NCBI GenBank assembly: GCA_013362835.1
Contig: JABFVJ010000036.1
Location: forward strand, 1-6,922
Source: Nonomuraea sp.
GTDB taxonomy: Bacteria; Actinomycetota; Actinomycetes; Streptosporangiales; Streptosporangiaceae
DNA length: 6,922 nt
Direction of reading: 5' to 3'
How positions within the stretch are numbered: position 1 is the stretch's first letter; each line of letters begins with the position of its first letter. Below, piece after piece: positions 2 to 4,745 of this stretch. The notes below the pieces were generated by a model. The model saw only the letters and a program-made list of their open reading frames with translations, searched no databases and was not told the origin of the DNA. Both the position numbers and the translations under genes were made by a program.

Positions 2-658
2 TCCGAGCGCGACGTCGAGCTGGTGGCCAGCCCGCCGCGCCAGGTGCTCGACCGGCTGCTGAACGCCCGCGCCAAGCGCCACAGGCGTGGCCGTCTCCTG
101 ATGGCCGTGGCGGCCTCCGTGGCCGTCATCGCCGTGGGCGGCACGGTGTGGACGACGACGCGGCAGGACGCGGGGCAGGGGAACGCCTCGGCGCCCGTGG
201 CCGCCTCCCAGTCCTCGGCGTCCGCCGGGAAGGCGGAGGAGAACTCGCCCCTCCTGGCCAGGGACGCCGCGCCTGACACCTCGTTCAAGGCCGCCCCCAC
301 GCCGAGCGCCATGGCCACCAGGGCGAGGAAGCGCCCGGTCGACGGCCAGGTGTTCAGGGGCGAGAACAAGGTCAGGGACTACTACGCGACGGTGTCGGCC
401 GTGCCCGGCGAGAGCGGCACCGAGCTGCTGGTGAGCGTACGGAACATCCCGGTCGGCACCACCTGCGGCCTGGCGGTCTACGACGACGCGGGCGGGCGCG
501 AGGTCACGGGGAGCTGGACCGTCACCCGCGACACCTACCGCAAGGAGTCCGTGTTCGGCCTGGAGACGGCGGTGCCGATGGGGGACATCGCCCGGTTCGA
601 GGTCGTCGACCGGGCCGGACGCGTGCTGGTCAAGGTCGAGGGCCCGGCGCGGAAGTAA
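2..658 (+). CDS. Membrane-anchored protein, probable anti-sigma factor C-terminal part (5' partial)
   Basis: The reading frame is open from the left edge, so the gene starts outside the window; the in-frame GTG at 23 is only an internal Val. Visible order: about 30 residues with a basic stretch (ARAKRHRRGR), one hydrophobic helix (LLMAVAASVAVIAVGGTVW), a low-complexity Ala/Ser/Pro linker of about 60 residues, then a roughly 100-residue beta-rich C-terminal domain starting near VFRGENKVRDYY and ending VEGPARK. The basic-then-hydrophobic order predicts a cytoplasmic N-terminus and an extracytoplasmic C-terminal domain. Actinobacterial zinc-finger (zf-HC2) anti-sigma factors have this layout, with the HxxxCxxC finger in the N-terminal part that is missing here, so the assignment rests on architecture only. 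A generic single-pass sensor or secreted-domain protein is the alternative. The thioredoxin gene follows after 39 bp and could be co-transcribed. Confidence 0.55.
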   Translation, partial: SERDVELVASPPRQVLDRLLNARAKRHRRGRLLMAVAASVAVIAVGGTVWTTTRQDAGQGNASAPVAASQSSASAGKAEENSPLLARDAAPDTSFKAAPTPSAMATRARKRPVDGQVFRGENKVRDYYATVSAVPGESGTELLVSVRNIPVGTTCGLAVYDDAGGREVTGSWTVTRDTYRKESVFGLETAVPMGDIARFEVVDRAGRVLVKVEGPARK

Positions 659-2726: not shown

Positions 2727-2772
2727 CCGGCCTTGACGCAACCGATCGCCGCGTGGCGGTGTTGTACTGGAC

Positions 2773-3333
2773 GTGAGTGAAACCGACTGCCTCGACCCGG
2801 TGCGCAAGGCGCTGCTCGACGACCTCGACGAGGGCTTCGCCGAGCTGTACGCCGCCCACCGCGGCCTGGTCTTCTCGACCGCGCTGCGGCTGAGCGGGCG
2901 CTGGGCCGACGCCGAGGACCTCACGGCCGAGACGTTCCTGCGCGCCTACCGGGCGTTGTCCGGCTACGAGCGCGACCGGCTGGCCGCGTTGCAGCCGCGG
3001 GCCTGGCTGATGACGATCCTCATGAACATCTGGCGCAACTGCGCCCGCGCGAAATCCCGCAAGCCGCCTCCCGACCTGCGTGACGAGCCCGTCGAAGAGC
3101 CCGACCCCGCCCAGGACGTCGAGGAGGCCGCCGTACGCAGGGAGACCGGCGACGAGCTGTCGGAGCTGCTCGGCCTGCTGCCCGACGAGCAGCGGGCCGC
3201 GGTCGTGCTCCGGCACGTCGTCGACCTGCCGGTCAGCGAGATCGCCACCGTGCTCAAGATCCCGCAGGGCACGGTGAAGTCGCACGTGTCGCGGGGACTG
3301 CGCCGGCTGCGCGCACTGGGAGGTGCCCGATGA
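2773..3333 (+). CDS. ECF-type (sigma-70 family) RNA polymerase sigma factor
   Basis: A 186-residue sigma factor with only regions 2 and 4, as in the ECF group. Region 2 spans about residues 18-92, with the core-binding and -10 recognition segment WADAEDLTAETFLRAYRAL (44-62) and WLMTILMNIWRN (78-89). An acidic Pro-rich linker (about 98-125) follows. Region 4 is at about 128-183, with LLPDEQRAAVVLRHVVDL and the helix-turn-helix VSEIATVLKIPQGTVKSHVSRG. Start GTG 2773 lies 47 bases after the terminator; no clear Shine-Dalgarno precedes it, so a leaderless mRNA is possible. TTGACG (2733-2738) and TGTACT (2763-2768) are seen upstream, but their spacing of 24 is too long for a standard promoter. The stop overlaps the methyltransferase ATG (ATGA), so the two are coupled. 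No zinc-finger anti-sigma gene follows. Confidence 0.92.
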   Translation: MSETDCLDPVRKALLDDLDEGFAELYAAHRGLVFSTALRLSGRWADAEDLTAETFLRAYRALSGYERDRLAALQPRAWLMTILMNIWRNCARAKSRKPPPDLRDEPVEEPDPAQDVEEAAVRRETGDELSELLGLLPDEQRAAVVLRHVVDLPVSEIATVLKIPQGTVKSHVSRGLRRLRALGGAR

Positions 3334-4082
3334 ACGACGACGCACTGCTGGCCGGACTCGCCGCGCTCGCCACCGACGCGCCGCCAGGACTGCTCGACAG
3401 GATCGCCGCCCGCTGGGTGAGCGTGCCCGCGCCGATCGGCGAGCTGCGGGTGGCCTTCACCGACCGGGGCGTCGCGTACGTGCACGCCGGCGACGACTTC
3501 GCCGCCGCGTTCAGGAAGCGCTTCGGCCGGCCGCTGCTGCCCGCCGAACGGCCGCCCGCCGGGCTGGTGCCCGCGCTGCGCGACGGCCGGCCGGGCAAGG
3601 TGCCGCTGGACCTGCGCGGGGTGAGCGACTTCCAGCGCGACGTGCTGGACGCCGTCAGGACGATCCCGAGGGGCGAGATCCGCCCGTACGCGTGGGTGGC
3701 GGCGCAGATCGGCCGGCCCAGGGCCGTACGGGCGGTGGGGACGGCGCTCGGGGCCAACCCGGTGCCGCTGCTGATCCCGTGCCACCGCGTCACCAGGTCC
3801 GACGGCGAGGCCGGCGACTACGTGTTCGGCCGGGCGGCCAAGGAACGGCTGCTGCTGGCCGAGGGCGTCGACCTGGACCGGGTGCGCGAGCTCGCCGGGG
3901 AACGGGTGTTCTACCTGGCGAGCGACACCACGGGCGTGGTGTGCTTCCCGACCTGCCACAACGCCCGCCGCATCACGCCGAAGCACCGCCACGGCTTCCG
4001 CAGCCTCGCGCAGGCGCGGGCCGCCGGTTACCGGCCCTGCCGCACGTGCCGGCCGGCTCAGGCGGACGGCTTGGTCGGGTAA
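3330..4082 (+). CDS. Methylated-DNA-protein-cysteine methyltransferase with C-terminal Ada Cys4 domain
   Basis: A 250-residue cytoplasmic suicide DNA-repair protein. Residues 1-30 are an Ala/Leu-rich helix-prone extension. Residues about 30-95 are the Ogt N-terminal ribonuclease-like domain (PIGELRVAFTDRGVAYVHAG), and 100-185 the alkyltransferase domain: FQRDVLDAVRTIPRGEIRPYAWVAAQIGRP, then the RAVG helix (132-137) and NPVPLLIPCHRV with acceptor Cys151. Residues 193-242 match the Ada metal-binding domain: VFYLASDTTGVVCFPTCHNARR ends with Cys205 and Cys209, and YRPCRTCRP gives Cys237 and Cys240, the Zn-Cys4 set in which the first Cys accepts methyl from phosphotriesters in E. coli Ada. The order is reversed relative to Ada (Zn module first there), and no AraC helix-turn-helix is present. 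GGGAGGT (3318-3324) precedes the ATG, which overlaps the sigma stop. It probably repairs O6-alkylguanine; a sensor role is inferred. Ogt- and Ada-like names both fit only in part, so no symbol is given. Confidence 0.93.
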   Translation: MNDDALLAGLAALATDAPPGLLDRIAARWVSVPAPIGELRVAFTDRGVAYVHAGDDFAAAFRKRFGRPLLPAERPPAGLVPALRDGRPGKVPLDLRGVSDFQRDVLDAVRTIPRGEIRPYAWVAAQIGRPRAVRAVGTALGANPVPLLIPCHRVTRSDGEAGDYVFGRAAKERLLLAEGVDLDRVRELAGERVFYLASDTTGVVCFPTCHNARRITPKHRHGFRSLAQARAAGYRPCRTCRPAQADGLVG

Positions 4083-4612
4083 CGCATCAGGAGCGTCGCG
4101 CGTACGACGTCGGGGCCGTGCGCGCGGTAGCCGTGGGGCACGTCGGAGCGCCACGAGATGTGGTCGCCGGGCCCCGCGGTGAGCGGTTCGTCGAGCGGGC
4201 CCGCGCTGAGGGTGCCGCTGAAGACCGTGACGTGCTCGCTCACGCCCTCGTGGTGGGCGGGCGAGGTCTGGGTGAGGCCCGGGGGCACGCGGACGCGGTA
4301 GAGCTCGTAGGTGACGCTGTCGTCCTCGAACACCTCCAGCAGGTCGGCCTCGATGGCCGTGCCGCGCATGGTCTGGGGCTCGGGCGGCAGGTCGAGGATG
4401 GCGCCGATGGGCACGCCGAGCTGCGCGGTGATCGCCCACAGCGTCTCCAGCGTCGGGTTGCGGGTGCCGGTCTCGACGCCGGACAGCGTGGCCTTGCCGA
4501 TGCCGGCCCGCCTGGCGAGCTCGGACAGCGAGACCCCGCGCGCCTGCCGCAGCCGCCTCAGTCGGTCTCCCACCACGGCGGGGTCCTGGTCGAACGCGGG
4601 CAGTGGCTCCAT
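4058..4612 (-). CDS. XRE-family transcriptional regulator with C-terminal cupin
   Basis: A 184-residue regulator. The N-terminal XRE helix-turn-helix (about 13-72) reads VVGDRLRRLRQARGVSLSEL, then ARRAGIGKATLSGVETGTRN and PTLETLWAITAQLGVPIGAI. A cupin_2-type barrel (about 100-180) follows, with HHEGVSEHVTVFSGTL (120-135) and GPGDHISWRSDVPHGY (147-162) supplying the His/Glu pocket residues. XRE-cupin proteins usually sense a small molecule through the cupin and control neighbouring transport or metabolic genes; no ligand can be named here. The frame extends to an ATG at 4672, but residues before the ATG at 4612 do not look conserved and the domain begins normally from 4612, so the shorter start is chosen. 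No strong ribosome site is seen. Its 3' end overlaps the convergent methyltransferase gene by 25 bp, and the divergent neighbour is the membrane protein at 4746. Confidence 0.9.
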   Translation of the reverse strand: MEPLPAFDQDPAVVGDRLRRLRQARGVSLSELARRAGIGKATLSGVETGTRNPTLETLWAITAQLGVPIGAILDLPPEPQTMRGTAIEADLLEVFEDDSVTYELYRVRVPPGLTQTSPAHHEGVSEHVTVFSGTLSAGPLDEPLTAGPGDHISWRSDVPHGYRAHGPDVVRATLLMRYPTKPSA

Positions 4613-4745
4613 ACCGCCATCGTGCCGCACTCCTCGCCCTGTGTGGTCGCGATTTCGTCCCCGATAATTCATTTGTCACTGCTCAGGGACAGGCGATGCC
4701 GGGTTGCGGCTGCGGCAGATGGGACAGACCGCTACGATTCAGCAG
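4613..4745. promoter_or_regulatory. Divergent promoter region with dyad and AT-rich island
   Basis: The spacer between the XRE regulator and the membrane-protein gene holds the only clear AT-rich island of the area (ATAATTCATTT, about 4664-4674). Read on the minus strand, AATTAT (4669-4664) could be a -10 for the regulator, with CTGTCC 17 bases before it. On the plus strand GATAAT (4663-4668) is 5 of 6 to the -10 consensus but lacks a good -35. An imperfect 18-bp dyad TGTCACTGCTCAGGGACA (4674-4691, arms 7 of 8 complementary) lies beside the island and is a candidate operator, perhaps autoregulatory. All by eye. Confidence 0.35.
4733..4738 (+). promoter_or_regulatory. -10 element of a leaderless transcript
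   Basis: TACGAT (4733-4738) keeps the essential T1, A2, A5 and T6 of the -10 consensus and is followed by 7 bases and then ATG at 4746, the spacing expected for a leaderless mRNA. The -35 is poor (CTGCGG at 4710-4715, 17 bp away). It supports the start chosen for the following gene. Confidence 0.42.

Follow-up and report, generated by a model that had tools for sequence, protein, structure and literature searches.

The Ada response of E. coli (Ada, AlkA, AlkB, AidB) is built on a suicide alkyl acceptor with Ogt and Cys4 domains, which acts as an activator contacting RNA polymerase and exerts positive feedback on its own gene (available part of PMC4437013). A related logic is found in the SigH/RshA system, where a soluble zinc anti-sigma factor with metal-binding cysteines serves as a cytoplasmic chemical sensor for its ECF sigma partner and is modified by oxidation (available part of PMC8999054). 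According to the same source, ECF sigma factors without an anti-sigma factor are also known, and ECF122, of which a member from Cellulomonas sp. Root930 is named, lies beside 6-O-methylguanine DNA methyltransferases, its mechanism being listed as unknown. The suspicion of the first-pass annotation of our locus that such pairs might already appear in ECF surveys was thus well founded as regards methylguanine methyltransferase neighbours. None of the papers listed by a literature search reaching few subscription journals dealt with an ECF sigma factor with an Ogt-Ada partner, with the regulon of such a pair or with an Ogt protein acting as anti-sigma factor, and the available parts of PMC8103513 and PMC7406223 likewise hold nothing on an ECF sigma factor with an Ogt-Ada partner.

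The window, a stretch of 6,922 nucleotides from Nonomuraea sp., encodes an ECF sigma factor whose gene overlaps that of an Ogt-Ada fusion protein (Table 1). In the sigma protein, Pfam finds only Sigma70_r2 and r4, with a short linker between them, as is characteristic of ECF sigma factors. In its partner it detects DNA_binding_1 (2e-28) and Ada_Zn_binding (5e-11): the PCHR acceptor together with the Ogt fold (PF01035; match of the structure model to 1sfe) identifies an Ogt/MGMT protein, and PF02805 corresponds to the Cys4 phosphotriester domain of the Ada regulator. An AraC-type DNA-binding domain is absent, PF01035 and PF02805 being the sole Pfam domains, and the best stretch of the protein against the NCBIfam Ada model (residues 25-178) is its Ogt part. 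The arrangement thereby differs from E. coli Ada in that the Ogt part precedes the Cys4 module, the AraC domain is missing, and a separate ECF sigma factor replaces the DNA-binding half. Downstream lies a convergent HTH-cupin gene (4058-4672, minus strand) that overlaps the end of ogt, and no anti-sigma domain was detected by Pfam in nine translated stretches of the window, one of which (2385-2670) was in the wrong frame. On these points the first-pass annotation was accurate: its gene coordinates, overlap and cysteine positions all agree with the sequence, and the gene that follows the pair is not one for an anti-sigma factor.

Table 1. Features of the sigma-ogt operon in the window
Feature	Position	Strand	Description
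ECF-type promoter of sigma-ogt operon	2738..2763	+	GCAACC 2738-2743, 14 bases, GGTGTT 2758-2763
ECF sigma factor gene	2773..3333	+	186 aa; Pfam PF04542 + PF08281/PF04545
Sigma stop/Ogt start overlap, ATGA	3330..3333	+	four-base overlap kept in 83/92 distinct pairs
Ogt-Ada(Cys4) fusion gene	3330..4082	+	250 aa; PF01035 + PF02805
Ogt N-terminal leader, residues 1-28	3330..3413	+	candidate sigma-contact segment (putative role); conserved L10, L13, L21
PCHR alkyl-acceptor motif, Cys151	3777..3788	+	92/92 pairs
Ada Cys4 module, Cys205/209/237/240	3900..4055	+	PF02805, residues 191-242

Like ECF122, the window sigma factor lies beside a 6-O-methylguanine methyltransferase and without an anti-sigma factor, whereas neither a Cys4 fusion nor a regulon is mentioned for ECF122 in the available part of PMC8999054. 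This neighbour feature does not decide membership in ECF122, because a second, unrelated ECF-Ogt family described below also has it; that family may itself be ECF122, and it is as good a candidate as the window sigma factor. The likeness to SigH/RshA, in turn, is one of logic only. Neither Pfam nor the best 50 of 364 fold matches of the Ogt-Ada model connect it to the Class I anti-sigma factors (ASDI/ZAS), no anti-sigma fold of any kind occurs among those 50, and the modification would here be an irreversible alkylation instead of an oxidation.

Conservation of the sigma-Ogt pairing

The sigma-Ogt pair is a real and widespread module. Short peptide patterns of the Ogt protein, which reach close relatives only, were run against 84,980 species genomes and retrieved 42 loci. 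In 40 of these, a sigma match of nearly full length lies immediately upstream, so that the pairing cannot be ascribed to chance. The remaining two are a locus at which both genes have decayed to a remnant (L040) and an unrelated Ogt (L042). Within an even sample of the class, the Ogt protein was present in 9 of 394 genomes (E 1e-45 or better), with the sigma gene adjacent at 10 of 10 places, and more distant versions reside on Rubrobacter and Streptomyces plasmids, where the Ogt gene stands behind an annotated sigma gene. Named hosts of the pair include Nonomuraea, Bailinhaonella, Streptosporangium, Sphaerisporangium, Amycolatopsis, Solihabitans and Pseudonocardia. An adjacency restricted to close relatives, which the first-pass annotation had said would speak against its proposal, is therefore not what is seen: the pair extends far beyond them. 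Two Streptomyces plasmids (L330, NZ_CP107901.1; L331, NZ_CP107856.1) carry a sigma factor, an Ada metal-binding-domain protein and ogt. These adjoin SARP regulators as well as metF, which is accompanied by metK or metH, a cluster that possibly provides self-protection in a methylation-rich pathway.

Altogether we compared 92 distinct pairs, 41 from the named loci and the window and 51 from further genomes. In 83 of them, the Ogt start codon coincides with the four-base overlap (ATGA 75, GTGA 7, TTGA 1), a count that leans towards overlap because the script took the start nearest the sigma stop, the start codon at this place being real in all 83. The PCHR cysteine is present in every pair and the Cys4 motif (C-x3-C-x(24-30)-C-x2-C) in 87.

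The two genes are also rarely found apart. Of the 65 genomes with the sigma factor in two samples of 200 each, 64 have the Ogt. In the first sample, from the order of Streptosporangium carneum (G002, L035), 37 genomes carry the sigma factor and 40 the Ogt, and all 37 fall within the 40; two of the three Ogt genomes without a sigma match are incomplete in sequence (G628, G692) and the other has a large deletion (G750). In the second, from the family of Pseudonocardia asaccharolytica (G004, L037), each protein occurs in 28 genomes and both in 27. Here, G415 apparently represents the decayed type seen at L040, while G425 (L357/L372) has an open sigma gene and no Ogt match, neither in the 6 kb fetched nor genome-wide at E 1e-45. 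The G425 sigma gene also lacks the motif of its own promoter (partly judged by eye), and we take this genome to be a rewired orphan and the single case against a strict dependence of the sigma factor on Ogt.

The overlap itself is not essential, because a transposase gene (IS110-like by eye) separates sigma and Ogt-Ada in G535 (L187), a natural uncoupling, and because the Ogt start in G613 lies several hundred bases past the sigma stop. The row of genes in G535 reads sigma, transposase gene, Ogt-Ada, small Cys4-like protein (by eye), AlkB and second Ogt. The opposite extreme, a natural fusion of the two proteins, was sought with a joined sigma and Ogt query; the candidate P0139, one among the 120 matches listed, proved to be a frameshift that leaves sigma region 4 out of frame (by eye), and L155 (G750) and L040/L077 are deletions joining the remains of both genes, which we treated as decay.

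The membrane-looking protein encoded at 23-658 of the window was considered as the anti-sigma factor of the window sigma factor, given that 29 of the 42 loci contain a further ECF sigma match upstream, and was rejected since 11 more loci have the pair but not this match in the flank fetched. The protein, in which no Pfam domain was found, is located downstream of that other ECF sigma match, which falls outside the window (window 23-658 and L001 845-1282), and it may be the own anti-sigma factor of that other ECF sigma factor.

A different ECF sigma factor, 28% identical to that of the window, is joined by a four-base overlap to a 207-residue Ogt without Cys4 at L048 (G003). This second-family Ogt was found in 41 of 296 genomes of the class sample (E 1e-45), and its loci comprise L048, L299-L328 and L332, a Tsukamurella plasmid (NZ_LR134464.1) that supplied some of the queries. 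A sigma match lies upstream at 30 of the 30 loci fetched, including that of the query, one of these matches being cut by a contig end. PF09859-like genes are neighbours at 10 and AlkB-like genes at 3 of 31 loci, the Tsukamurella plasmid counted, and the row on this plasmid reads ogt, sigma, Ogt, 2OG-Fe(II) oxygenase and AlkB. Two unrelated ECF lineages are thus tied to alkylation repair.

The promoter and its recurrence at other genes

A promoter of the form GCAAC-N14/15-GGTGTT or GGGGTT is found upstream of the sigma gene in 79 of the 92 distinct operons, with a 15-base spacing in 68. Seven of the 13 operons without the motif have GCCAC for GCAAC (by eye), and in at least three of the 13 (L150, L173, L177) the motif stands instead before a PF09859-type gene that precedes sigma. 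Because an ECF-type promoter is kept at its own gene in most sigma-bearing genomes, the sigma gene is probably autoregulated, as established ECF biology would have it; the positive feedback suggested by this promoter would parallel that of E. coli Ada (PMC4437013). In the window, the promoter ends nine bases before the GTG start of sigma, and the sigma transcript is thus probably leaderless. The GCAA within the -35 element GCAAC (2738-2743) also occurs in the Ada B box of E. coli (PMC4437013), a likeness that is probably a coincidence.

We searched whole genomes for the pattern TGCAACS-N13-15-GGKGTT, with the reversed pattern as control. In 50 genomes with the pair, 123 sites were found against 24 of the control, and seven of the 50 have zero sites. 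Among 200 genomes of the order, the 40 with the pair contain 87 sites (control 10) and the 160 without it 108 (control 83). The motif excess is largely confined to pair-bearing genomes, and background matches exist.

Within the fetched loci, the genes following 108 distinct sites, a subset of all sites, were read. Apart from the sigma operon, these include a recurrent SDR oxidoreductase, PF09859 oxygenases (L148 and L150 by Pfam, L173 and L177 by likeness), MFS transporters (L221 by Pfam, L126 and L163 by eye), SnoaL proteins (L206, L222) and, in one genome each, AlkB (L187; NCBIfam AlkB 2e-30), a second Ogt (L151) and an Fpg glycosylase (L188). PF09859 proteins act on damaged DNA according to their Pfam description. 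Because most motif matches are single and many are without a gene start close behind, we do not take single matches for regulon members and claim only targets that recur or that belong to repair families.

The sole near-universal target beyond the operon is the SDR. Its orthologues, defined by an identity of 63% or more, are present both in genomes with and in genomes without the pair, and the motif accompanies 31 of 32 in pair-bearing genomes versus 1 of 44 in the others. In the former, it lies within 200 bases of the start in 28 of 29 automatic and 3 of 3 by-eye starts; in G648, which deviates, a single base of the motif is altered, and the lone SDR with the motif but without the pair belongs to G681, in which no close sigma factor was found. 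With the strict pattern and automatic starts, the counts are 21 of 29 versus 1 of 44 (Fisher p = 7e-11, uncorrected for kinship). One place per genome was used where there were two, G692 (partial match) and G610 (without the pair) are left out of the comparison, and 7 of the 40 pair-bearing genomes lack an SDR match at E 1e-60.

The neighbourhoods of the pair, with flanks mostly of 1.5 to 5 kb, hold PF09859-like genes at 12 and AlkB-like genes at 11 of 91 loci. AlkB is also a target of the E. coli Ada response (PMC4437013), a likeness that rests here on one genome by promoter and on those 11 loci by neighbourhood. The occurrence of the motif before SDR, AlkB, PF09859, second Ogt and Fpg genes points to an alkylation-damage regulon driven by the sigma factor. 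The first-pass annotation had anticipated an alkylation-response regulon, and the repair genes behind the shared promoter bear it out.

How Ogt-Ada might control its sigma factor

From the operon, its overlap, its promoter and the sharing of this promoter with genes elsewhere, all of which are seen in the comparison, we infer that the sigma factor is held, released and shut off again by its partner. We envision a scenario whereby the ECF sigma factor would drive transcription of the operon that encodes it and of a limited set of further genes. Its regulon would comprise Ogt-Ada, the SDR wherever present, with few exceptions, and in certain genomes AlkB, PF09859, second Ogt, Fpg or an MFS exporter. 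Ogt-Ada, translated together with the sigma factor, most likely keeps this partner inactive, and irreversible alkylation of the acceptor cysteine of Ogt-Ada, Cys151 in all members, would make it let go, a trigger to which Cys205 of the Cys4 module may add. The freed sigma factor would then give rise to more sigma factor and to fresh Ogt, which, being unalkylated, would end the response. Ogt-Ada as both anti-sigma factor and sensor is our best reading of the locus, and we lean, by a narrow measure of confidence, towards the pair being a sigma-factor version of the Ada response of this kind. Several observations speak against it: beyond the operon only the SDR is a near-universal target, most motif matches are single and many are background, with AlkB, Fpg and the second Ogt following the motif in a single genome each, and in G535 and G613 the two genes lie apart.

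Which parts of Ogt-Ada might mediate such control? The first-pass annotation pointed to the activation of E. coli Ada by methylation of its Cys4 module and proposed that irreversible self-alkylation changes sigma binding. As a general switch, methylation of Cys4 is not supported: it is out as the sole or universal switch because five of the 92 pairs are without Cys4, and of all parts of the protein Cys4 follows the sigma distances least. As every pair has the PCHR motif but some lack Cys4, Cys151 would be the likelier trigger, and Cys4 could add phosphotriester sensing.

The proposal that the N-terminal leader contacts the sigma factor fared better in part. Its leucines L10, L13 and L21 are conserved (98%, 93% and 96%), and it is the least rigid segment of a structure model built from 77 sequences (mean pLDDT 91, pTM 0.85; an earlier model from 13 sequences had reached 71.4), with block pLDDT values of 67-72 against 73 for the C-terminal tail and 84-97 for the rest, and a low-confidence helix at residues 5-14. 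In the same model, the Ogt half matches 1sfe (E 3e-12), and the Ada Cys4 half has a weaker match to 1u8b (E 0.02, probability 1.00). On the other hand, the leader, taken over its full length, is less conserved than any other part of the Ogt protein (mean 0.63 versus 0.67-0.75 elsewhere), and covariation does not favour it. Mutual information was computed over the 92 pairs, equivalent to an effective number of 42 sequences; at this depth, its maximum between sigma and Ogt was not above the largest of 100 shuffles, and the leader took part in 4 of the top 40 pairs versus 6.2 expected, while the Ogt N-domain, with 20 versus 12.3 expected, was somewhat over-represented. We consider the leader a fair candidate for the sigma-contact segment. 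In one Ogt-Ada protein (P0051), the leader segment is present as a tandem repeat at the N-terminus.

Could Ogt-Ada be a mere product of the operon? The sigma factor might then be controlled by transcription, by proteolysis or by an anti-sigma factor encoded elsewhere, and switch on repair genes. The position of such genes behind the shared promoter is just as compatible with this reading, the existence of ECF sigma factors without an anti-sigma factor (PMC8999054) provides precedents, and the covariation maximum stays within the range of the shuffles at 42 effective sequences. A mere operon product would, however, leave unaccounted for the four-base overlap kept in 83 of 92 pairs, the company of Ogt in 64 of 65 sigma-bearing genomes although other repair targets vary between genomes, and the presence of a non-rigid leader with conserved leucines, and we hold this alternative to be rather unlikely.

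It is conceivable, too, that the signal is a reactive natural product or electrophile and not DNA alkylation, with Ogt as one protective target among several, next to exporters and the SDR. No target is more constant than the SDR, MFS and SnoaL genes follow the motif in some genomes, and a related sigma-Ogt pair lies beside metF with metK or metH on two Streptomyces plasmids; given that AlkB, PF09859, second Ogt and Fpg genes stand behind the same promoter in some genomes, and that the Ogt acceptor cysteine is kept in 92 of 92 pairs, such a signal nevertheless strikes us as quite improbable. A positive role, whereby the methylated protein would help the sigma holoenzyme at the promoter in the manner of methylated E. 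coli Ada, could build on a Cys4 module that matches methylated N-Ada structures by sequence and fold, and on the contact of E. coli Ada with RNA polymerase (PMC4437013). The module is missing from 5 of 92 pairs, however, and the AraC half of Ada is absent, which makes a positive partner highly improbable in our estimation.

Returning to Ogt-Ada as anti-sigma factor and sensor, the second family suggests a broader formulation, for which we see a little less than an even chance: a DNA-repair enzyme would itself serve as anti-sigma factor, and an Ogt, whether or not it carries Cys4, would free an ECF sigma factor on its suicide alkylation. This would amount to an Ada response without an Ada activator, an arrangement reached in at least two unrelated actinobacterial ECF lineages. 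The promoter, its targets and the presence and absence test on the SDR turn a type of pair listed with unknown mechanism into a concrete model of a sigma-based alkylation response, and the clear DNA motif makes this model testable with one reporter. If Ogt is indeed the inhibitor, anti-sigma factors would gain a new class, one that doubles as a one-shot chemical sensor, and the coupling of repair capacity to transcription in these actinobacteria would have an explanation.
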